Both the position numbers and the translations under genes were made by a program. Of a stretch of 35,149 nt of DNA, positions 10,226 to 35,149 are shown piece after piece. Positions within the stretch are counted from its first letter, which is position 1; the number at the start of each line of letters is the position of its first letter. The stretch covers positions 142,316-177,464 of the forward strand of contig JAACPI010000002.1 of assembly GCA_009995545.1 (NCBI GenBank), read 5' to 3'. A model generated the notes under the pieces. That model was given only the letters and a program-made list of their open reading frames with translations, was not told the DNA's origin and searched no databases. The DNA is from a bacterium. Lineage in GTDB: Bacteria > Patescibacteriota > WWE3 > 2-01-FULL-39-13 > JAACPI01.

Positions 10226-11203
10226 TTAGTTAAGTTGCTTAACCGAGTACCCAGTTGAATCTTTTACTACATACAAACCAGAACCCTCGACCTTTCCTAA
10301 ATCCTCTAGCAAACTATCTAGCCCAAATAGCTTTAGATCTACTTCAAGGTCATCCGCTAAAAAATCTTTGGAGGGGGAGTAGGCAAAGAATACTACGTAA
10401 TCTTTTACACTCCCAATACTCCTAGAAAAATTCGCATTATTTTGTAAACCTAAAGAGATCTTATTATTAACATCTTCCATTTCTTGAACTAAATTAAGAT
10501 CATTAGATACGACTAAAAACTCCCCTATTCTAGAAGTTAAAATGCGGGCATCTTTGCTTTTATTTTTTTGATACTTCGCATAAGTTCTTTCAAAAAAATC
10601 TACACCACCTGTCTTAGTTATTATAGCCCAACTACTTTTGTTCTTTTTAACAAAGGCATAGTCGGACCTCATAAAAATTAAAAAATCAGAGAATTTTAAT
10701 TCATAGGAATCCGCTATGTACTTCTTTTGCTGGGAAGTAAGCAAAGACCCCATTAGATATCCAGGGTCACTGCTTTCTGCGTAGAAAATAACGCCACCAG
10801 GCACCACAGCGTAAAAGTCCGATTTTAAAACCTCTTCTTCTAATTTTATGCCTAAGTTTTTAACCTCTAATTCTACACTGTTTACAGAAACAAGGGGATC
10901 TATAGTATTTGTATTTTTAATAAAATTTGTTCTAAAAAATACCCCTGCGGAAAATAGTACAAACATTAAGGACAGGGCATTTGCCCCGAGCACAAAGGAA
11001 TTCCATTTTTTAGTTTTTTTATCATCAAAGTGAGATACTTTGTTAACAATCGAACTAGAGTCTGCGCTGACCACCTCTTCAATTTTGTTTGAGTCGAAAG
11101 AAACTTCCTTTTCTTTTATTAAAAGGCGAGACCCACAATCAAAGCAAAAGAAAGATAAGGGATTATTTATCTGTGCATGACATTTTGGGCAACTTCTCAT
11201 CAA
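10226..11203 (-). CDS. Zinc-ribbon plus single-TM protein of unknown function (DUF3352-like?)
   Basis: N-terminal CPKCHAQINNPLSFFCFDCGSRL zinc ribbon, one TM helix, then an extracellular domain. Confidence 0.7.
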   Translation of the reverse strand: MMRSCPKCHAQINNPLSFFCFDCGSRLLIKEKEVSFDSNKIEEVVSADSSSIVNKVSHFDDKKTKKWNSFVLGANALSLMFVLFSAGVFFRTNFIKNTNTIDPLVSVNSVELEVKNLGIKLEEEVLKSDFYAVVPGGVIFYAESSDPGYLMGSLLTSQQKKYIADSYELKFSDFLIFMRSDYAFVKKNKSSWAIITKTGGVDFFERTYAKYQKNKSKDARILTSRIGEFLVVSNDLNLVQEMEDVNNKISLGLQNNANFSRSIGSVKDYVVFFAYSPSKDFLADDLEVDLKLFGLDSLLEDLGKVEGSGLYVVKDSTGYSVKQLN

Positions 11204-11334
11204 AATTCTATAAATTTACTCAATTCTATTTGTGCAATTACCAAGGGTAATAAATAATACATTTTTAAATAGGGGGTCATCAAATGAATGATAAATAAAC
11301 CCCTATCTAAATATACCAAATAAGTCTTTTAGTA

Positions 11335-13443
11335 TCACTCCTTAAACTTAAGAGTTAAAGTGTACTTACCGTCATTTCCAATTTCTTTAAGTAATACTCT
11401 AACAACCTGACCCTCTTTAAAGTGCTGGTTTATGTCTTCTACGTATTCATCAGAAATTTCACTAACGTGAACTAAACCCTCTTTCTGAGGTAAAAATTCA
11501 ACTAAAGCGCCAAATGCAAATAATTTTGTCACAGGTCCTTCGTATATTTTACCCACTTCAGGTTCTTCAACCATACCTCGTACTCTATTTAAAGCTATTT
11601 CTAAAGCCTCTTTGTTATCAGACATAATTATTACGGAGGCGTCAAGCTCTCTTTCAATAATGTCTAAACTTGCACCAGAAACTGCCTCAATTTCTTTAAT
11701 ATTTTTACCACCAGGTCCAATAATTAAACCAATTTGATCTTTCTTTATGGTAACTTCTTTTACTCTAGGAGCGTTATCTTTAAGATCTTTATTTGGATTA
11801 GCTATAATCTTTTTCATTTCTTCTAAAATACTTAATCTTGCAGTTTTAGATTTATCTATAATCTGATCAAACAAGTTTAAGGGTATTCCTTTAGGTTTTA
11901 TATCCATCTGAATTGCAGTTACACCTTTATCTGTACCAGTCATTTTAAAGTCCATGAGCCCAGCAAAGTCCTCGGCTCCTTGAATATCCGTTAAAATTCT
12001 GTAGTCGGTTTCTTCGTCATTAGAGATAAGTCCTATAGATATCCCACCAACCATACCTTTAATAGGAACTCCGGCATCCATCAAAGCTAAAGTACTTCCA
12101 CATGTTGCAGCCATAGAGCTGGATCCATTTTGAGAAAGAATTTCTGATACTACACGTACAACATAAGGGAACTCAGAAACATCAGGTAAAACTGGAATTA
12201 AAGCTTTTTGAGCCAATAGTCCATGACCTATCTCCCGGTTTCCTACCCCACCTAGTCTACTAGGCTCTCCTGTAGAAAATCCTAGACCTACGTAGTGGTG
12301 GAAATATCTGCTATCTGATTCACCAAAAATAGTATCGGCATGTAAGGTATTTGCAGGTGACCCTAAAGTAACTACAGACAAACCTTGAGTTAAACCCCTT
12401 TCAAATAAAGCACTACCATGAACTTGAGGTAAAACGTTTACCTCTCCAGAAATTTTTCTAACTTCGTCAAGTTTTCTACCATCTATTCTCATATTCTTAT
12501 CTAAGGCTAGATTACGCAGATTTATTTGTTGAAGTTTATCTACAGCGTATCCCACCTCTTTAGGATCAAAGTCTTCTTCTTCGGAATGTTTTCCCTCAAT
12601 TTCTTCTAAAGCATTTTTTCTAATAAGATCAAATGCTGCCCAAAAATCTTCTTTATTTTTAGGGCTACTGACTAGTTTATTTATATCGGAATCAAACTTA
12701 GCTTTAACTTCTTTGTATATGCCTTCGCTGGAGCTAAAACTAATGTACTCTCTTTTTTTCTTACCTATTTGCTTGGCAAAGTCATTTATAAATTTAAATA
12801 AACCTTTGGAGCTTTCAAAGCCATATTTAATAGCTTCTTTTAGTACCTCTTCGGTTACTAAATTAGCACTAGCTTCCATAGCCTGAACTCTTTCATTTTC
12901 TAGATAAGAAATCATTAAGTGTAAATCAGATGTCTCTGACTCTTCCATAGTTGGATTTGGTAACATCTTACCCTCTTTATAACCAACATGCATACTTGAA
13001 ATTGGCCCTGCAAAAGGTAATGGAGAAGCTGTTAAGACAGCAGAAGCTGCTATTAAAGCTAGTAAGGTTGGGTCACTTTTTTTGTCAACAGACATTACAG
13101 TTAAAACCAACTGAACTTCGTCTCTAAAATCTTTAGGAAATAAGTATCTAATTGCGTGGTCTACTAATCTTCCAGCAACTACATTTTCATCACTAGGTCT
13201 TCCTTCCCTTTTATTCCACTTTCCACCAGGCACTATACCGCCTGCATACATTTTCTCTTCGTATCTGACCATTAAAGGTAAATAACCCGGATCCACTTCG
13301 TTTACGCCAGAAACTACTGTTGCTAAAACAGTGGTACCTTCTAAACTGGCTAAAACAGCCATGTCAGCCTGTGGGGCTAAACGACCTGCTTTAAGGGTCA
13401 ATTTTTTACCGTGGTAGTCTATTGATGTAACTACTTCACTCAT
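11335..13443 (-). CDS. pnp: Polyribonucleotide nucleotidyltransferase (PNPase)
   Basis: Full-length PNPase with RNase PH domains (GGKWNKREGRPSDENVVAGRLVDHAIRYLFP; IFGESDSRYFHHYVGLGFSTGE), KH (IIGPGGKNIKEIE) and S1 domains. The ORF track start at 13497 is a TTG; the ATG at 13443 (MSEVVTSIDYHGK) is the likelier start. Confidence 0.97.
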   Translation of the reverse strand: MSEVVTSIDYHGKKLTLKAGRLAPQADMAVLASLEGTTVLATVVSGVNEVDPGYLPLMVRYEEKMYAGGIVPGGKWNKREGRPSDENVVAGRLVDHAIRYLFPKDFRDEVQLVLTVMSVDKKSDPTLLALIAASAVLTASPLPFAGPISSMHVGYKEGKMLPNPTMEESETSDLHLMISYLENERVQAMEASANLVTEEVLKEAIKYGFESSKGLFKFINDFAKQIGKKKREYISFSSSEGIYKEVKAKFDSDINKLVSSPKNKEDFWAAFDLIRKNALEEIEGKHSEEEDFDPKEVGYAVDKLQQINLRNLALDKNMRIDGRKLDEVRKISGEVNVLPQVHGSALFERGLTQGLSVVTLGSPANTLHADTIFGESDSRYFHHYVGLGFSTGEPSRLGGVGNREIGHGLLAQKALIPVLPDVSEFPYVVRVVSEILSQNGSSSMAATCGSTLALMDAGVPIKGMVGGISIGLISNDEETDYRILTDIQGAEDFAGLMDFKMTGTDKGVTAIQMDIKPKGIPLNLFDQIIDKSKTARLSILEEMKKIIANPNKDLKDNAPRVKEVTIKKDQIGLIIGPGGKNIKEIEAVSGASLDIIERELDASVIIMSDNKEALEIALNRVRGMVEEPEVGKIYEGPVTKLFAFGALVEFLPQKEGLVHVSEISDEYVEDINQHFKEGQVVRVLLKEIGNDGKYTLTLKFKE

Positions 13444-13574
13444 AGTGTATTTTTCGAGGTGGGATAGTTTAGGAAAGTAAAACGTACAAACGTACAAAAA
13501 GGCCCTAAATCGACCATCTTATGCGTTCTTACGTTTTTAATACTTAAACTACCTTTCCTCAATTTAATTTTTTA

Positions 13575-13844
13575 TTACTTTTTTAAACCTAGTCTTTTTA
13601 TTAAAGCTAAGTATCTTTCTTCACTTTTTCTTTTTAAATAAGCTAATAATTTTCTTCTCGTGCTAACCATTTTTAAAAGGCCTCTTCGAGAATGATTATC
13701 CTGTTTGTGTACTTTTAAGTGGTCCGTAAGTTCTGTAATTCTTTCACTTAACAAGGCCACCTGTACTTCTGGAGAACCAGTATCTCCCTCTTCAGTACTA
13801 AAATCTTTTATTAATTTTTCTTTTAATTCTTTTTTAATAGCCAT
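13575..13844 (-). CDS. rpsO: 30S ribosomal protein S15
   Basis: [52 protein letters not shown]. Classic rpsO-pnp order. Confidence 0.98.
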
Positions 13845-26893: not shown

Positions 26894-27103
26894 ATGAAAA
26901 ATTATCAAATAAGCGAAAAAGATATTGAAGCCGTGATAAATTACCTTAAGATCTTTGATCCGGAAAATGCAACGCCTGAAATGGCAATTGAGCTTTTCGA
27001 GTATATGCAGGCAACTTATCACAATATAAATCACGAAGATCCAGAGCATCTTAAAAAGATCTATGAGGATTTACAGAAGCAGAAAAAGCTTACAACTAAC
27101 TAA
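26894..27103 (+). CDS. Small hypothetical protein
   Basis: MKNYQISEKDIEAVINYLKIFDPENATPEMAIELFEYMQATYHNINHEDPEHLKKIYEDLQKQKKLTTN. The ORF-track TTG start at 26879 overlaps a TATAAT, so an ATG at 26888 or 26894 is likelier. Confidence 0.6.
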   Translation: MKNYQISEKDIEAVINYLKIFDPENATPEMAIELFEYMQATYHNINHEDPEHLKKIYEDLQKQKKLTTN

Positions 27104-27342
27104 AAAGGCAGAACATCCGAAGATCTGACTTTAAGCGCAGTCAAAACCTTTTTTAAAGTGATGACTGACAAGCTAGGGTTCTCTCTTTCCATCTTTGCAT
27201 AATAATTGGTGTTAATTCCTGCTTTTTTGGCAAGCTGCGCTTGTGTTAAACGCTGTTCGAGCCTTAACGCCTTTATTTTGGCAGTAATATTCTGAATGAC
27301 CTTCGCATCTTGAGGATTAAGCATATGAGGATAGTATAACAT
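27100..27342 (-). CDS. XRE-family helix-turn-helix regulator
   Basis: IKALRLEQRLTQAQLAKKAGINTNYYAKMERENPSLSVITLKKVLTAL. Confidence 0.92.
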   Translation of the reverse strand: MLYYPHMLNPQDAKVIQNITAKIKALRLEQRLTQAQLAKKAGINTNYYAKMERENPSLSVITLKKVLTALKVRSSDVLPF

Positions 27343-27350
27343 TACAAAAC

Positions 27351-27713
27351 TTAGTTGTAATTTATATTGCTTTCTGGCATTTCTACCAAAGTCTCAAACG
27401 CTTCTTTATTTCTTTGAACAAATACAACCTTTTTTGCCTTTAGAGAGCTTGTTTTTAAACTCCATTCATCGTAATCCCAAATAAGCCCTGCGGGAAATAG
27501 AAAGTGTAAAAGAATCTTCCGTTGAGGTAATGAAGCATTTTGAAAGGTAGTATAAAAATTATCGAGTAGCAATTTGAAAGAATCTCTAAGTTTTTGAATG
27601 TTTGATCCGTATAAAGCAATTTTTATTTTTTCTTTTTCCAAATCATCAATTTGCTTTGCAATAAATGCAACTTGTTCCGTTGTAATTTGATTCCAATTAT
27701 GAAACTGTTTTAC
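27351..27713 (-). pseudogene. Probable C-terminal remnant of a large serine recombinase
   Basis: Frame open up to the TrlF-like stop: VKQFHNWNQITTEQVAFIAKQIDDLEKEKIKIALYGSNIQKLRDSFKLLLDNFYTTFQNASLPQRKILLHFLFPAGLIWDYDEWSLKTSS. The LPQRKILLHFLFPAGLIWD tail resembles C-termini of CPR serine recombinases. No catalytic domain present. Confidence 0.5.
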
Positions 27714-30707
27714 TTAGGTCTCGTTTTCTAAAACAGTCACCCTTTTTAGATACTTTTGATCTCTTTTTTGAAAAGCTGGAAGTGTTCCTTCTAGAACATC
27801 TAGTATTTTCTTGTTGATCATCGGATTTTCTATGCTACCAGAAGTATATCTAATTTCATAGGTATGCTTGTTCATCTCGGAGCTGATTATTTGTTCCGCA
27901 TCACAGACAACGGCAAGGTTAGGGTTATGGGTAACAATAATGATCTGTCGTTCTTTCTTGGCTTGTTTTATGTAGGGAACAAGAAGGGTATAGACAGATT
28001 CATTATCTAGATTTTCTTCCGGTTGGTCAATTATAAGGGGCACTTTGTTCTTGTCTATTAGTAAGTAAAATATTAGCAACAACGCCCCTATTTCCCCAGG
28101 TGAAAATTCATTCTCATTTAGATCTTTACCATTGAAAGTAATATTATATTTGACCTCCAGATATTTTAGTCCATAAAGATAGTTATAAAGTTCTAATTTC
28201 TTACCATCACTTTTTATTAGTTGATCATCGAGGAGTTTGGACGGATTTTCCTTTACTGATTTGTCTACCCTTAGACACTCGATAAGTTCCTTTATTAGAT
28301 TTACAACGCCATCTTTTGTTTTCAGGTCATTGTTTGCGATAGTTTCCTTTACTCTAGTTAGCGCTTCATCTTTCCCTTGAAAACTGCCATCTCTGCTTTG
28401 ATTAATAAAGGATAAAAAATCTATGGGAAAATTTAGTTTGTCAAAAACTATACCAACATCAAAATTAAGCACACTGCCTGTTTCTCTTTGTTCCTCCTCC
28501 TTATTACTTATGACCTTGACTAGGGGAGCATAGATTTCTTCATAAAATGAAATCTTTTTTAAATGTTCATCATAAATTTGCTCAACCGTCTGATCTCTAA
28601 GTTTTTCCGATGCTTCAATATTTTCATCTAAGCCCTTCTGGATATACTGTATTTCACTAGTTAGGGATTTTATAGTCGTTAGGCTTGTATCATCATCTGC
28701 CCCTTCGATTAACCTTCGTTTTGTCTGGTATACTTTCAACGCTTTTTGATATTCTCGAAAGTTGTTGTTTTCTTGGTCAAGGCCTTCAACGATTGTTTTT
28801 AAATTTGCCTGAATCCCTTTCTTCTTTATAACTAGACTTGTTTTTGCGTTTCCTTGTTCTGATAATAAAGCAGTTAATTTACGATTTTCTAAGTTTATAA
28901 GAGTTTTCTTTTGTGCGATAAGAGTTTCATTTATTTTGATTCTTAAGAGTTTCTCAGAATCAATACCCAAAAGGGTTAAATCTTCTCTATAGCTAGAAAT
29001 AAAATCGTTAAATTGCTTTTGGAGACTGCCTAGAGCAATTTCTAGGTTTTGGACCTTTGTGAAGTTTTGGTTAATAACCTTTAATGCTATTTGCTTTTCT
29101 CCAATTAGTTTTTCAACATTTTCAAGGGATTTATTAAGAGCTGAGATTTTATCTTCTACCTCTTTCGACGGCTTGCTTTTAGGCTCTGAGACTTTCTTTG
29201 GTTTGACTAAATTTTTTAGCTCTCGTTGTTTTTCCTCCAAATTACGCAGGAGCCTTCCGAGATATGTTGGAAGTTTTTTGTCTTCTAGTTTACATATCAC
29301 ATTATTTTGTTCTGATACTTTTTGCTTTAAAGTTTCAACATTGCTGTCAATAAGTCCGGTTTTTAGCCTAATTAAATCATTTAAATTACTAGTGTTATTT
29401 CTATTTTCCTCAGGAACATATGAAAAGATTACTTTGTCGATTTCCTGCTGAAAAAGTTGATTGACACCACTATTATCGCAAATCGCTTCAACAAATTTCT
29501 GAGGAAGATATTTTACTTGTTCAGGCTCTGTGAGCTTTACTTGATCATCAAGACTCGACTTAATCGATATGCCATCCTCCCAAGTTAGTATCACTTCATA
29601 TTGTTTCGCTAATCCTTTTTTTCTGAACTTATCATCTCTTAAAAAAGAGTAGGTATTCGAATCGGTGTGACTTTTTCCCGCCAAAGCGAGGGAGTCTGCT
29701 TGCGCGCTTTTACCGCTCCCCTTTTTGCCAATAATTGCTACCAAGCCAGGATTGATAGGTATTTCATTATCAAACCAGGGGTTCTCTTTGGTTCTGTCCA
29801 CTGATTTCAAAGATATAGTCTTAATATAACGGGATTTATTACTCTCAATGTCGAGTAACTTTGGGGGCATTTTACCAATGAAGATTCTATCCTCTGGTTC
29901 ATTTACAACTTGTCTTAACCCACCAAAAGTTGGATCAGCTTTTATCCAACAACATCTTTCGCCAGCTTGAGAGTTTTCATTTCGCATTGCCCCAATTGGA
30001 TATGTGTATTCGTGAGAATCACTACCTTTAAGACAGGGTTTTTTATCCTCGAACCACTCTTTAAACTTTTCCTCTTTAATTTTACTATCTTTCCAAAGAA
30101 AGAAATCTATTTGTTTTTGATTCGACGAACCAATAAAATGAGAATCATTTATAAGTCCTTGTTTAAACCACTGATCATTTACTGGATCAATATTGTCAAT
30201 ACCACCATACTCGTCATACGGCATCCAAATTAAGTATTTTCCTCTGAAGGTTGGGTTTGCCTCAAGTAATTCCTTTGTTTTGGCGAAGTCAACAGCTACA
30301 CTCTCATACAGGAACTTGCTATCAGAATATTTACTGGAGATTTGACTCCCGTTAACTATAAGTGACTTTAGGAAGTTTTCTATATCTAAAATGTCGATTT
30401 CGTTGCTAAAAATGATATGAAAGTTTATTCGTTGACCATTTTTAGAATTTTTGTTTAACAGTGCGTTGGTCATCCTAAACTCAACCACGGGCAGGGTAAT
30501 TTTGTTTGAATTTGGTACTTTGGCTATAAACTGCTTATACCCCTCTACAGAGCAGTAATCATTGATACCAATAACATCACAATCCGATTTTTCAATCTGA
30601 TCAAAAAATTGAGGGTAGGTACCCTTGTAGCTAAATGAGGCAGGACTATGGACATGTAAATCCCATTTCCTCCAAATTGATCCTCTGGGATCATTCTGTA
30701 TATTCAT
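27714..30707 (-). CDS. PHP-domain plus SMC/ABC-like ATPase (TrlF family; resembles Ppl-type defence proteins)
   Basis: N-terminal PHP motifs WDLHVHSPASFSYKGTYPQF, INDYCS, GSDSHE; Walker A VAIIGKKGSGKSAQADSLALAGKS; long coiled coil; Walker B PLIIDQPEENLDNESVYTLLVPYI; H-loop IIIVTHNPNLAVV. Confidence 0.9.
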   Translation of the reverse strand: MNIQNDPRGSIWRKWDLHVHSPASFSYKGTYPQFFDQIEKSDCDVIGINDYCSVEGYKQFIAKVPNSNKITLPVVEFRMTNALLNKNSKNGQRINFHIIFSNEIDILDIENFLKSLIVNGSQISSKYSDSKFLYESVAVDFAKTKELLEANPTFRGKYLIWMPYDEYGGIDNIDPVNDQWFKQGLINDSHFIGSSNQKQIDFFLWKDSKIKEEKFKEWFEDKKPCLKGSDSHEYTYPIGAMRNENSQAGERCCWIKADPTFGGLRQVVNEPEDRIFIGKMPPKLLDIESNKSRYIKTISLKSVDRTKENPWFDNEIPINPGLVAIIGKKGSGKSAQADSLALAGKSHTDSNTYSFLRDDKFRKKGLAKQYEVILTWEDGISIKSSLDDQVKLTEPEQVKYLPQKFVEAICDNSGVNQLFQQEIDKVIFSYVPEENRNNTSNLNDLIRLKTGLIDSNVETLKQKVSEQNNVICKLEDKKLPTYLGRLLRNLEEKQRELKNLVKPKKVSEPKSKPSKEVEDKISALNKSLENVEKLIGEKQIALKVINQNFTKVQNLEIALGSLQKQFNDFISSYREDLTLLGIDSEKLLRIKINETLIAQKKTLINLENRKLTALLSEQGNAKTSLVIKKKGIQANLKTIVEGLDQENNNFREYQKALKVYQTKRRLIEGADDDTSLTTIKSLTSEIQYIQKGLDENIEASEKLRDQTVEQIYDEHLKKISFYEEIYAPLVKVISNKEEEQRETGSVLNFDVGIVFDKLNFPIDFLSFINQSRDGSFQGKDEALTRVKETIANNDLKTKDGVVNLIKELIECLRVDKSVKENPSKLLDDQLIKSDGKKLELYNYLYGLKYLEVKYNITFNGKDLNENEFSPGEIGALLLIFYLLIDKNKVPLIIDQPEENLDNESVYTLLVPYIKQAKKERQIIIVTHNPNLAVVCDAEQIISSEMNKHTYEIRYTSGSIENPMINKKILDVLEGTLPAFQKRDQKYLKRVTVLENET

Positions 30708-30824: not shown

Positions 30825-31298
30825 TCATACTAGAGTATCCAAATTTCTTATTAATATCTTCCCTTCAAGTGGATCAGCTGAATAGGAGGCTTTATCGATT
30901 TCATACACTTTCCCATTTTGTTTCAAAACTAAGCGAGGAGAATCTTTTTTATCGTTGTTCCAGATGTAAGATTTGCCCGTGAATAAATGATAATCAGCAC
31001 CAACCATGTCTATGGGAGCAAGATTTTCAAGTGGCATTTTCCCTCCTGAATGGATACGAATTATTTTATTTACACCTAGAATACCTGCAAACCCCATTAC
31101 TTCATCCCAGACACCGTTTGGATATTTAGATGTGTAAGCTATGTGGTCAAGTTTTATATTTTCAAGCACATAACCCTCGCTCCCACTATTTTTGAAATCT
31201 ACCCATTCGCCGGCAAGCTGAGGCGATGGAATAAAGTTTAAAATACGATCTTTTCCTATTGGGTTTGGCTTAGCCTGTATTATTAATAACTGTTTCAT
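30825..31298 (-). CDS. Small protein with lamin-tail-domain-like sequence
   Basis: GEWVDFKNSGSEGYVLENIKLDHIAY...GVNKIIRIHSG...SYIWNNDKKDSPRLVLKQNGKVYEID fits the LTD pattern; no signal peptide. Confidence 0.6.
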   Translation of the reverse strand: MKQLLIIQAKPNPIGKDRILNFIPSPQLAGEWVDFKNSGSEGYVLENIKLDHIAYTSKYPNGVWDEVMGFAGILGVNKIIRIHSGGKMPLENLAPIDMVGADYHLFTGKSYIWNNDKKDSPRLVLKQNGKVYEIDKASYSADPLEGKILIRNLDTLV

Positions 31299-31324
31299 AA
31301 TAGTTTATCCTTGGATATTTGCAC

Positions 31325-31353
31325 TTGACACTACTGTAAATTTACCATAAAGT
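31325..31353 (+). promoter_or_regulatory. Promoter of the lexA-like/methyltransferase operon with a palindromic operator candidate
   Basis: -35 TTGACA (31325-31330), 17-nt spacer, -10 TAAAGT (31348-31353). Perfect 10-bp palindrome GTAAATTTAC (31336-31345) lies in the spacer; ATG at 31360. Confidence 0.5.
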
Positions 31354-31359
31354 TATCAT

Positions 31360-31962
31360 ATGACAACACCAAAAGTCAAGCCCATCACTGGTAGGCAAAA
31401 AGAGGCTCTAGACTTTATTAACTCTTTTATAAATACAAAAGGATATTCTCCATCACTTCGAGAATTGGCAAGTCTCCTTAAGACTGACAATTTAAGCACC
31501 GCCCAATATTTTGTTAAAGAGCTGGAAAGTAAAGGTTATATTAGACGTGCTCATTACAAGAACAGAGGAATTACCCCAGTAACCCAAAAGAGAACAATAC
31601 CACTTTTGGGCTATATTGCTGCTGGTGAACCAATTGATCCTATTGAAGAATCAGAGCCAATACAAGTTCCATATGATATTAAATTAGACAGAAATCAATC
31701 GTACTACGCACTCAAGGTTCAAGGCGATAGTATGATTGACATGGGAATACTTGATAGGGACGTTGTTTTGATAAGACATCAAATGTTTGCTGCTGATGGC
31801 GACGTGGTTGTAGCTATTACGGAAAATGGAGCGACATTGAAAATTTTACGCAAAAATAAAAAGAAAATGTATTTGGAAGCACGAAATACAAGTTATCAGC
31901 ATATTTATCCCGAGCAATTAGAAATTAGAGGAAAATTTATTGGATTAATAAGACATGAATAA
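31360..31962 (+). CDS. lexA: LexA-type autoproteolytic repressor (winged helix plus S24 peptidase)
   Basis: TGRQKEALDFINSFINTKGYSPSLRELASLLKTDNLSTAQYFVKELESKGYIRR; cleavage-site-like LGYIAAGEPID; catalytic Ser VQGDSMIDMGILDRD; catalytic Lys ATLKIL. Confidence 0.93.
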   Translation: MTTPKVKPITGRQKEALDFINSFINTKGYSPSLRELASLLKTDNLSTAQYFVKELESKGYIRRAHYKNRGITPVTQKRTIPLLGYIAAGEPIDPIEESEPIQVPYDIKLDRNQSYYALKVQGDSMIDMGILDRDVVLIRHQMFAADGDVVVAITENGATLKILRKNKKKMYLEARNTSYQHIYPEQLEIRGKFIGLIRHE

Positions 31963-34003
31963 AGAACTTCAGCTAGATAGTGATTCACAAATTACTTCCA
32001 ACAGAATGAACTATAATGTTATTTTGAATAGTAATCTTTCGAACCAAAAATTTGATAAAAAGTTGTTTAATGAGGCTCTTCAATTACGTGATAAATTGGC
32101 TATACAATATAGTCAATTTTTTTTGGAAAGCTATGACATTAGCTATGCAAAAAAAGAAATATCTAATTCTTTACTAAAGCAATTACTTAACAGAGAACCT
32201 TTTACCAATTGTCTTCAAAAGTTGTCTTTTTCCCAATATTTAACTGACATTGCAGTTAATCACATACTGAGTTCTGATAAACCTCTTTTAAACAAAGTCG
32301 GATTAGTAGGTTATGTTACGGAAATAGGAGGAAGGGAATTTATAGACCCTAATTTTCCCCAAAGAAAGGAAAAAAACCTTGCTTCATCCAAAAAACATGG
32401 CTACTTCTTTACCCCTGTTTCCTTAGCAAATGAAATGTCACATCTATTGATTAATTCAAAAGATAACTTAAAAGTTATCCTGGATCCTGCATGTGGTACC
32501 GGCACCCTATTGGCAATTACTTTAATTAATTATCCGCAAGTCAAGAAAGTTATTGGTGTAGAAATAGATGCATTTACGTCAAAAATAGCTAAAAAACTAC
32601 TTGAGCATGTTTCTCTAAAACTAGGAGTCAAAACTGAAACTGAAATTTTAAACATGGATTTTCTTGACATAGTTTCCACTAACATCAGTCATTCACTACT
32701 TTCCCTGAAAATTGATGGAATCATCATGAACCCTCCATATGGAAGAATTAGATTTACAAGCTCTAATTTATCTAATAGGGAAACAAAAGTCGGATTAGTC
32801 GGAAACGATGTCACAAATTTAGCAAAGGGATTAAAAAAAGAGCATGTTGAAAACGCTGAAGGGTATAGAAAGAAGTTCGAAAATGTAGGCTTGGGGAAAG
32901 CAACCCCTGAATTTTCAACACTGTTTATAGCAGGATCGACAAAGCTTTTAAAAAAATATGGGTCTTTGGTAGCGATTACACCCACTTCTTGGCTATCAGA
33001 CAAGAATGGTGCTGGTTTAAGAAAATACCTTCTTTCTAACCATGGGCTTAGTGAAATTTGGAATTTTAAAGAAACTGCAGGAATGTTCCCAGGAGTTAAT
33101 CAAGCTACAAGCGTAATTCTACTCCAGGCAGAAAATCAATTGGGCAAAATCAAAATTAAAGCAGATATCGAATCTATTCAAGATTTGAATTGTGATAGTC
33201 ACGAGTTGGATTTAGAAAAAATTTACAAATTCAGCCCAAACTTACTAAGAATACCTAAATACGGTAACTCTAGAAGTGAATTACTAGAAAAAATCCATAA
33301 TCATAAAACTCTAGGGATGCATAAAGACATCCTTAATTTAAGAGGTGAATTTGATTTAACTTTTAATAAAGATCTAATATCAAAAAATAAGTCTGAAACA
33401 AGATTAATTAGAGGAGACCATATTAGGAAATGTTTACTTACTGATCCTGAAAATTCTGAGAAAGATGGATATGTAAATTTAGAGAAATTTTATCAAAGAA
33501 TGGGAAATAGCTCCAAAAAACAACATATTTCTAGTTGGAGAATTGCTTTACCTCAATGTTCATACATGCAAAAAAAGAAACGAATAGAGGCTTGTATAAT
33601 CCCTCCCAAAAGTGTAGTAGCGAACTCATGTAATTATATAGTTATAAAAGATGCTCGAGATCAAGACTTTGACACTTTATTACTTTATTGTGCGTTTTTA
33701 AATAGTCTTGTTGTAGAATGGAGATTTAGGCTATTTAGTTCTAATAATCACATTGCAAATTACGAAATTGACGAATTACCAGTTGTTGAAGTTTTGGCTC
33801 TATCGGACAAACTTAAAAACAATATTATCCTTAATATGAAAAGTTACCTAAAAACAAAGGATACTCAGTATTTATTGCAAACAGATATATTAGTAACAAA
33901 ATCATATGGTTTGAGCACTGAAGAATTTACTACCGTCCTTAGAGACTTAGACTCGGATCAGTATGATCAAATGATAAAAAATTATGAAAAAATATCACTT
34001 TAA
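31955..34003 (+). CDS. N6-adenine DNA methyltransferase (possibly Alw26I/Eco31I/Esp3I-type M.A subunit)
   Basis: HGYFFTPVSLANEM, motif I LDPACGTGTLLA, motif IV IIMNPPYGR, ITPTSWLSDKNGAGLRKYLLSNHGLSEIWNFKE; C-terminal specificity region. Overlaps lexA by 8 nt. Confidence 0.9.
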   Translation: MNKELQLDSDSQITSNRMNYNVILNSNLSNQKFDKKLFNEALQLRDKLAIQYSQFFLESYDISYAKKEISNSLLKQLLNREPFTNCLQKLSFSQYLTDIAVNHILSSDKPLLNKVGLVGYVTEIGGREFIDPNFPQRKEKNLASSKKHGYFFTPVSLANEMSHLLINSKDNLKVILDPACGTGTLLAITLINYPQVKKVIGVEIDAFTSKIAKKLLEHVSLKLGVKTETEILNMDFLDIVSTNISHSLLSLKIDGIIMNPPYGRIRFTSSNLSNRETKVGLVGNDVTNLAKGLKKEHVENAEGYRKKFENVGLGKATPEFSTLFIAGSTKLLKKYGSLVAITPTSWLSDKNGAGLRKYLLSNHGLSEIWNFKETAGMFPGVNQATSVILLQAENQLGKIKIKADIESIQDLNCDSHELDLEKIYKFSPNLLRIPKYGNSRSELLEKIHNHKTLGMHKDILNLRGEFDLTFNKDLISKNKSETRLIRGDHIRKCLLTDPENSEKDGYVNLEKFYQRMGNSSKKQHISSWRIALPQCSYMQKKKRIEACIIPPKSVVANSCNYIVIKDARDQDFDTLLLYCAFLNSLVVEWRFRLFSSNNHIANYEIDELPVVEVLALSDKLKNNIILNMKSYLKTKDTQYLLQTDILVTKSYGLSTEEFTTVLRDLDSDQYDQMIKNYEKISL

Positions 34004-35149
34004 AACAAGCAATCAAAATAACCATATCTTCCCCCAACTTTCCCAGTTAGATATGGCCATGATCAAGCATGTCAAACCAGGGGGAAATTGGATGGATATC
34101 CCAGAGGAAATTCCGTCCAATAGACTTAAACAGATAAGACAAATGTCCAAAGAGAGAGGGATTGTGAGAACAACTTATTATGGTCGGTTGAGAGCTGATC
34201 AACCGGCGTATACAATCTCTACTTACTTTAACAGACCCGGGAATGGGACAAATATTCATCCGTGGGAACATCGCACCTTAAGTTCTAGGGAGGCTGCTCG
34301 TTTACAATCCTTTCCAGACTCATTTGAATTTATTGGCTCTGAAGCTTCAGTTAGAAAACAGATAGGTAATGCTGTGCCACCACTGGTTGGTTATGCTGTA
34401 GGAAAAACGCTTGGTAAACAAACTTTTGTAGATTTGTTTGCTGGAGCCGGTGGCTTAAGCTTAGGTCTAGAAATGGCTGGCTTAGAGTGTGTAGGTGCAC
34501 AAGAACTTGACAAAACATTCCTTGAAACCTTCGAAAAAAATCACCCTAAGGTGGCTGGAATTTTGACTGGCGATATTACAGATGAACAAATTCAAAAAAA
34601 GTTTGTCGTACTAGTTGAAAAAAGTTTAGGTGGTGAAAGGCTGGGACTACTAGTTGGTGGCCCCCCCTGTCAAGGATTCTCACACGCAGGTTGGAGAAGA
34701 CAAGATGATAAGAGGAACTCTCTCGTTAGCTACTTTCTTAAAATGATTGAACTACTAAATCCTGAAAATGTATTGATAGAAAACGTCGAAGGATTATTAA
34801 CTATGGATAAAGGAAAAGTATTGGCCGGAATTTTCAAAGCACTGGAAGAGCTAGGATATGATCATTACGATAAACCCTTTGTTTTGCACGCAGAAGAGTA
34901 TGGTGTGCCACAAATGCGAAGGAGAGTTATAATTGTTGCCACAAAAAGAGGAAACAAACTTCCTTCCCCACCTATAAAACTATTTGATAAATGCTACGGA
35001 AGAAGGGAAAAATCAGAACATAGGAGTAATCCTTTAATTTCTTACCCTGTTGTTGTGGCTGAAGCCTTATGGGACTTACCCAAAATTGGTAAGCCCATTA
35101 ACAGTTTTCTCCCCAATTTCAATTCAGTAGATAAAACTTATTCAAAATG
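33984..35149 (+). CDS. Circularly permuted C5-cytosine DNA methyltransferase, 3' truncated by window edge
   Basis: Hand-translated from ATG 33984 (MKKYHFKTSNQNNHIFPQLSQLDMAMIKHVKPGGNWMDIPEEI...). Motif IX RTLSSREAARLQSFPDSF (34272-34325) and X QIGNAVPP (34359-34382) precede motif I FVDLFAGAGGLSLGLE (from 34425), IV GGPPCQGFS (34656-34682), VI ENVEG and VIII QMRRRVIIVA. No stop before the window end. Confidence 0.95.
   Translation, partial: MKKYHFKTSNQNNHIFPQLSQLDMAMIKHVKPGGNWMDIPEEIPSNRLKQIRQMSKERGIVRTTYYGRLRADQPAYTISTYFNRPGNGTNIHPWEHRTLSSREAARLQSFPDSFEFIGSEASVRKQIGNAVPPLVGYAVGKTLGKQTFVDLFAGAGGLSLGLEMAGLECVGAQELDKTFLETFEKNHPKVAGILTGDITDEQIQKKFVVLVEKSLGGERLGLLVGGPPCQGFSHAGWRRQDDKRNSLVSYFLKMIELLNPENVLIENVEGLLTMDKGKVLAGIFKALEELGYDHYDKPFVLHAEEYGVPQMRRRVIIVATKRGNKLPSPPIKLFDKCYGRREKSEHRSNPLISYPVVVAEALWDLPKIGKPINSFLPNFNSVDKTYSK

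Follow-up and report, generated by a model that had tools for sequence, protein, structure and literature searches.

How cells survive their own Type II restriction enzyme when methylation lags is a long-standing question. The known controllers of restriction-modification (R-M) systems time expression, and damage sensing has not been described for them. The question is raised anew by a locus in a bacterium of the WWE3 lineage (Patescibacteriota), at the end of a 35,149-nucleotide stretch of contig JAACPI010000002.1 (positions 142,316 to 177,464; hereafter the window), where a gene for a LexA-type repressor leads an operon with two DNA methyltransferase genes. What would a LexA be doing in front of these enzymes? 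Here we propose, with a probability of about 0.68 and on the strength of comparative sequence analysis, that it is a dedicated, self-cleaving autorepressor of the methyltransferases, released by DNA damage such as that caused by self-restriction, and that restriction itself is usually not induced.

Three genes make up the operon (31,325-35,149), all on the forward strand: lexA (31360..31962, 200 aa), an adenine-N6 DNA methyltransferase gene of the Alw26I/Eco31I/Esp3I type (31955..34003, 682 aa), and a circularly permuted cytosine-C5 DNA methyltransferase gene (33984..35149, 388 aa). The first two overlap by 8 nt (ATG at 31955, TAA at 31960-31962) and the last two by 20 nt (ATG at 33984, TAA at 34001-34003), so that the open reading frame (ORF) coordinates agree with the gene layout and both overlaps given in a first-pass annotation of this DNA. 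Because the window stops exactly at the contig end, the C5 gene is open at its 3' end, lacking its last codons, and any endonuclease gene is out of sight.

By family, the regulator is a LexA. It matches TIGR00498 at 150.8 bits (cut-off 110.95) and exceeds the cut-offs of PF01726 (LexA_DNA_bind) and PF00717 (Peptidase_S24), thus combining the winged helix-turn-helix (HTH) with the S24 peptidase domain, and the solved structures closest to it are those of LexA (3k2z, 7ocj and 1jhh). Its IAAGEP, GDSM and ATLK segments line up with the host LexA, and the conserved cleavage site and Ser/Lys dyad that had been noted at first pass are therefore borne out by alignment. In a PADLOC scan of the window the regulator had no match, and its LexA/S24 architecture is not that of a C protein, which is a small HTH protein of the XRE type.

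Separateness from the host lexA is equally clear. The source assembly (872 kb in 16 contigs, 92% complete) holds one other lexA, on contig C2, 35% identical to the window LexA and followed by an ORF that reads as UvrB, judged by eye; a recA gene lies on the same 177-kb contig as the window. It is not the window gene, then, that stands as the main lexA beside SOS genes, as the host's SOS master repressor would. A phylogeny of 38 LexA domains pairs the window LexA (100/100) with a LexA from another genome, G360, and places both outside the clade (99/97) that unites 13 canonical lexA genes.

Association of such repressors with methyltransferases recurs among relatives. Using the window LexA as the query, we surveyed 380 genomes of the same phylum and read the best matches, many of which sit in open frames of ~490-633 aa. 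Reading identified 21 ORFs, in 20 of the 380 genomes, in which LexA is followed in one chain by a DNA methyltransferase of the C5, D12 or N6_N4 family. Nine fusions were scanned with Pfam, and each had LexA_DNA_bind and Peptidase_S24 along with a methyltransferase domain (N6_N4_Mtase in six, MethyltransfD12 in two, DNA_methylase in one); two further fusions were found outside the survey, at L144 and, on an IMG/VR contig, at L145. Free LexA genes occur as well. That of G360 (locus L066), whose product is 69% identical to the window's, shares an operon with an EcoO109I-type system, being followed by an N6_N4 methyltransferase and then an EcoO109I endonuclease, and that of L071 lies tail-to-tail with an AlwI endonuclease gene, which comes after a D12-like methyltransferase. 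With the window included, the lexA-methyltransferase link is present in at least 23 of the 380 genomes. The first-pass annotation had proposed a LexA dedicated to the methyltransferase operon, to be checked by looking for a second lexA and for the same linkage in related genomes, and had reckoned with a linkage unique to one contig. The lexA on C2 and the recurrence of the link uphold the proposed dedication and dispose of the single-contig worry.

The partners of these repressors are diverse. Type II endonucleases named by Pfam adjoin LexA genes in 14 loci and belong to 11 families: EcoO109I, BsaWI (two), MvaI/BcnI (two), AlwI (two), MamI, NgoFVII, BglII, EcoRV, MutH (Sau3AI-like), HindIII and ScaI. 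Two more loci (L078 and L088) have ORFs that resemble the MamI one by eye, and the neighbours in L072, L075, L083, L084 and L086 had no family match. None of the 24 aligned LexA parts has lost the Ala-Gly bond, the Ser of G-x-S-M or the Lys of TLK, and the same cleavage residues were read in L144 and L145. At L145, the LexA shares 75% identity with the L082 LexA, and the methyltransferase shares 81% with the L083 enzyme. A convergent ORF at L145 likewise resembles the one at L083, yet between these two loci the LexA domains share only 54% identity. Judged by these comparisons and by the window/G360 pair, the LexA module is portable, having apparently moved between unrelated R-M systems. No fusion was found among the best LexA matches listed for 300 genomes of the Acidaminococcus phylum, in which the longest listed ORF has 357 aa. 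On viral contigs nothing related to the window LexA itself turned up, and plasmid matches were ordinary lexA genes of less than 40% identity.

Other features of these loci were recorded alongside. Fusions were the only LexA matches in G289 (L077, L084), G183 (L067), G015 (L076), G274 (L082), G076 (L083) and G098 (L087), and might be the sole LexA of these genomes, assembly gaps being possible. Large ORFs resembling serine recombinases by eye lie near LexA R-M genes in L071 (8558-10165), L073 (4789-6231), L078 (9070-10374), L087 (2488-3963) and L088 (5354-6640), and may mark mobile islands. A Vsr mismatch endonuclease (Pfam) is encoded divergently from the LexA-C5 fusion of L077 (4953-5369, minus strand), and a Vsr-like ORF, identified by eye, lies near another C5 gene in L068 (8786-9199, plus strand). 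On a viral contig, L159 (3302-4378) contains a 358-aa ORF with a C-terminal LexA-like part behind ~215 other residues.

In the window, a promoter/operator cassette, CACTTGACACTACTGTAAATTTACCATAAAGTTATCAT (31322..31359, forward strand), immediately precedes lexA, with a -35 element TTGACA (31325-31330) and a -10-like TAAAGT (31348-31353); if the latter is the -10, the lexA message may be leaderless, starting at or very near the ATG. Across the -10 and the start codon runs a direct repeat of 11-bp period, TTACCATA-N3-TTATCATA (31342..31360, forward strand), which we take as the candidate LexA operator. When the 70 nt upstream of 24 LexA R-M genes were compared with shuffled sequences, direct repeats of 11-bp period gave a mean best 8-mer match of 7.12 versus 4.89 (standard deviation 0.20; z = 11.5); among the remaining periods between 8 and 24, none rose above z = 1.8. 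The 11-bp period recurs in the phylum's canonical lexA promoters (z = 4.5), where the half-site is close to TTCGG, and the alpha-proteobacterial LexA box GTTC-N7-GTTC has the same direct-repeat geometry (PMC3323433). Half-sites vary from group to group of the R-M repressors (TTTCGG, TTTCTA, TTTCGA, TTAyCATA).

The cassettes of the window and G360 are identical at 35 of 38 nt (92%; local score 61, shuffled maximum 29), and their flanks are unrelated and the methyltransferases behind them belong to different families. Without mismatch, the window's 19-mer operator occurs once in its own genome, at its own promoter; the remaining genomic matches differ at two positions and occur at the frequency of a reversed control. 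The sequence at 31342..31360 is thus a putative operator private to the window LexA in its genome. Palindromic operators had been tried first and were unconvincing, direct repeats being the common feature; one perfect palindrome, GTAAATTTAC (31336-31345, between -35 and -10), is not kept in G360, which has GTATATTTAT, and the direct repeat is preferred for that reason.

Which genes, then, would such an operator govern? The endonuclease gene, or the candidate for it, is convergent in 17 of 20 loci, meeting the LexA gene at its 3' end with a gap of -21 to +30 nt. Searches allowing up to three mismatches found no copy of the cognate operator at endonuclease starts, apart from a single three-mismatch match ~130 nt inside one ORF. 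A convergent endonuclease without a convincing operator implies that, in most loci, LexA should govern its own gene and that of the methyltransferase, but not the endonuclease gene. Only at L066, L070 and L082 is the endonuclease on the same strand.

The window's own system fits among the Type IIS systems of Alw26I, Eco31I and Esp3I, which likewise pair a TIGR02987 adenine methyltransferase with a circularly permuted C5 enzyme (PMC5944983). Its adenine methyltransferase scores 402.4 bits against TIGR02987 (cut-off 353.5), and its C5 enzyme matches PF00145 at 232.8 bits in two separate stretches, in agreement with the m6A and m5C activities first assigned to them. Alignment places motifs IX-X before motif I, the same circular permutation known in M.Alw26I, M2.Eco31I and M.Esp3I (PMC5944983). 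A single PADLOC model of 1036 positions covers both window enzymes, and in plasmid relatives from Enterococcus and Lactococcus the two form one chain. A single-query pattern scan of genomes and viral contigs returned no close relative of the adenine methyltransferase, and with an alignment as the query only distant enzymes and one viral contig were among the matches listed.

No endonuclease was found in the assembly with Pfam RE_Alw26IDE or a three-sequence alignment, neither search being positive-controlled, and the ends of all other contigs showed neither a k-mer overlap with the window end nor a convincing endonuclease match. Four Alw26I-type relatives (L025, L026, L027 and L036) have a convergent endonuclease gene, from which a convergent one is predicted past the window end, and these four, unlike the window, have no LexA leader gene. 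Viral contig L036 has tandem endonuclease-like ORFs, identified by eye (10967-12364 and 12381-13772, minus strand), convergent to one fused Alw26I-type methyltransferase. The window probably encodes an Alw26I/Eco31I/Esp3I-like Type IIS R-M system, its endonuclease lying past the contig end, convergent and outside LexA control.

We propose the following mechanism. The dedicated LexA would bind the 11-bp-period direct repeat over its own promoter and, by negative autoregulation, set the expression of lexA and methyltransferase together, holding the methyltransferase low. Since the cleavage bond and the Ser/Lys dyad are kept, a RecA filament on damaged DNA would stimulate self-cleavage of LexA and so release methyltransferase synthesis. 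The likeliest purpose is a safety loop, in which an under-methylated chromosome cut by its own endonuclease gives the damage signal that calls for more methyltransferase; unbalanced R-M activities are known to induce SOS (PMC3874152). The same loop would, as a compatible second use, favour methyltransferase first on entry into a new cell. In the fused relatives, where repressor and methyltransferase are one chain, the cut would, in addition, release the enzyme from its operator.

Several points weigh against this proposal. Kept cleavage residues may persist without use, and the branch under the window LexA in the tree is long. The same-strand endonucleases of L066, L070 and L082 might also be induced, and the window methyltransferases could be an orphan pair, as no endonuclease was found in the assembly.

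Among the alternatives, the one that survives best is a constant autorepressor, in which LexA holds the methyltransferase low and steady in the manner of the M.EcoRII or M.SsoII HTH, and damage-dependent cleavage is vestigial or plays no part in the cell. HTH domains are known to repress the genes of their own methyltransferases (PMC3874152), and the operator data are explained without any cleavage. Yet a plain HTH would be enough for steady repression, and the cleavage bond, Ser and Lys persist throughout the 24 LexA parts, most of them 38-46% identical overall to that of the window; we regard this explanation as unlikely, at something like one chance in six. Considerably less probable is the view of the first-pass annotation that damage derepresses methyltransferase and endonuclease jointly and so raises defence. 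The three loci with a same-strand endonuclease behind the lexA-methyltransferase gene would suit it, but it is not borne out by the 17 of 20 loci with a convergent endonuclease or candidate and no convincing cognate operator, nor by the four Alw26I-type relatives with their convergent endonucleases. Slightly more doubtful again is that the main role is an establishment timer, acting methyltransferase-first on entry while repressor is initially absent, with any damage response secondary. R-M controllers are known to serve in timing (PMC3874152), and the module has passed from one system to another, unrelated one (window/G360; L145), but the keeping of a self-cleaving LexA in place of a small HTH protein would be left unexplained. 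That the gene is the host's ordinary lexA, as had been allowed at first pass, or a chance neighbour can be dismissed, for although it passes the general LexA equivalog cut-off, a second lexA stands before the uvrB-like gene on C2, the window gene groups with G360 outside the canonical clade, and the linkage recurs.

Comparison with known systems places the preferred reading, a damage-released autorepressor of methyltransferases, between several familiar designs. Domain make-up, cleavage bond, Ser/Lys dyad and 11-bp direct-repeat geometry are shared with the SOS repressor LexA, whereas the window gene is a second copy with a private operator, does not precede uvrB, and, like its relatives, is linked to R-M methyltransferases, by a shared operon or by fusion. 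M.EcoRII, M.SsoII and M.Ecl18kI also place a repressor over the methyltransferase promoter, and there, as in the fusions, it is one chain with the enzyme, the gene being repressed by the enzyme's own N-terminal HTH (PMC3874152). The regulatory part here is instead a complete LexA with its self-cleavage domain, joined to C5, D12 or N6_N4 enzymes, and in the window itself repressor and methyltransferase are separate, overlapping genes, the one-chain form with full LexA being that of the relatives. C proteins are likewise small dedicated regulators encoded within R-M systems, but they are small HTH activators or repressors without a cleavage domain that usually time the endonuclease (PMC3874152). 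We found no description of the LexA-methyltransferase arrangement in the open-licence literature, and our claim of novelty rests on this.

The minus-strand genes next to the operon were also recorded. Divergent from lexA lies a gene for a 157-aa protein (30825-31298) with a weak lamin-tail-like (LTD) match, followed by one for a TrlF-family AAA-like ATPase (27714-30707; NF045780, 598.8 bits), likely a defence gene; an ORF beside the LexA-D12 fusion of L070 (2108-4987) has a start, GSIWRKWDL, similar to that of this ATPase. At 27100-27641, a small XRE-type HTH protein, also weakly like R-M control proteins, is encoded beside an ORF of 96 aa that matched no family, the two being perhaps a toxin-antitoxin pair.

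If our proposal is correct, a LexA wired to or fused with a methyltransferase would let an R-M system sense its own failure directly. Methyltransferases of the C5, D12 and N6_N4 types and 11 families of endonuclease take part in the arrangement, and its cleavage residues and operators are conserved. More tentatively, and at somewhat less than even odds, the full loop may be closed: under-methylation would lead to cutting, cutting to a RecA filament, and the filament to cleavage of free or fused LexA, raising the methyltransferase and not the endonuclease, so that the module would serve as a portable, RecA-gated guard against autoimmunity across the unrelated R-M systems of the phylum, repressor and protective enzyme often being one polypeptide. 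The fusion of LexA to many unrelated restriction methyltransferases in relatives suggests that these cells make more of the protective methyltransferase in response to cutting of their own DNA.

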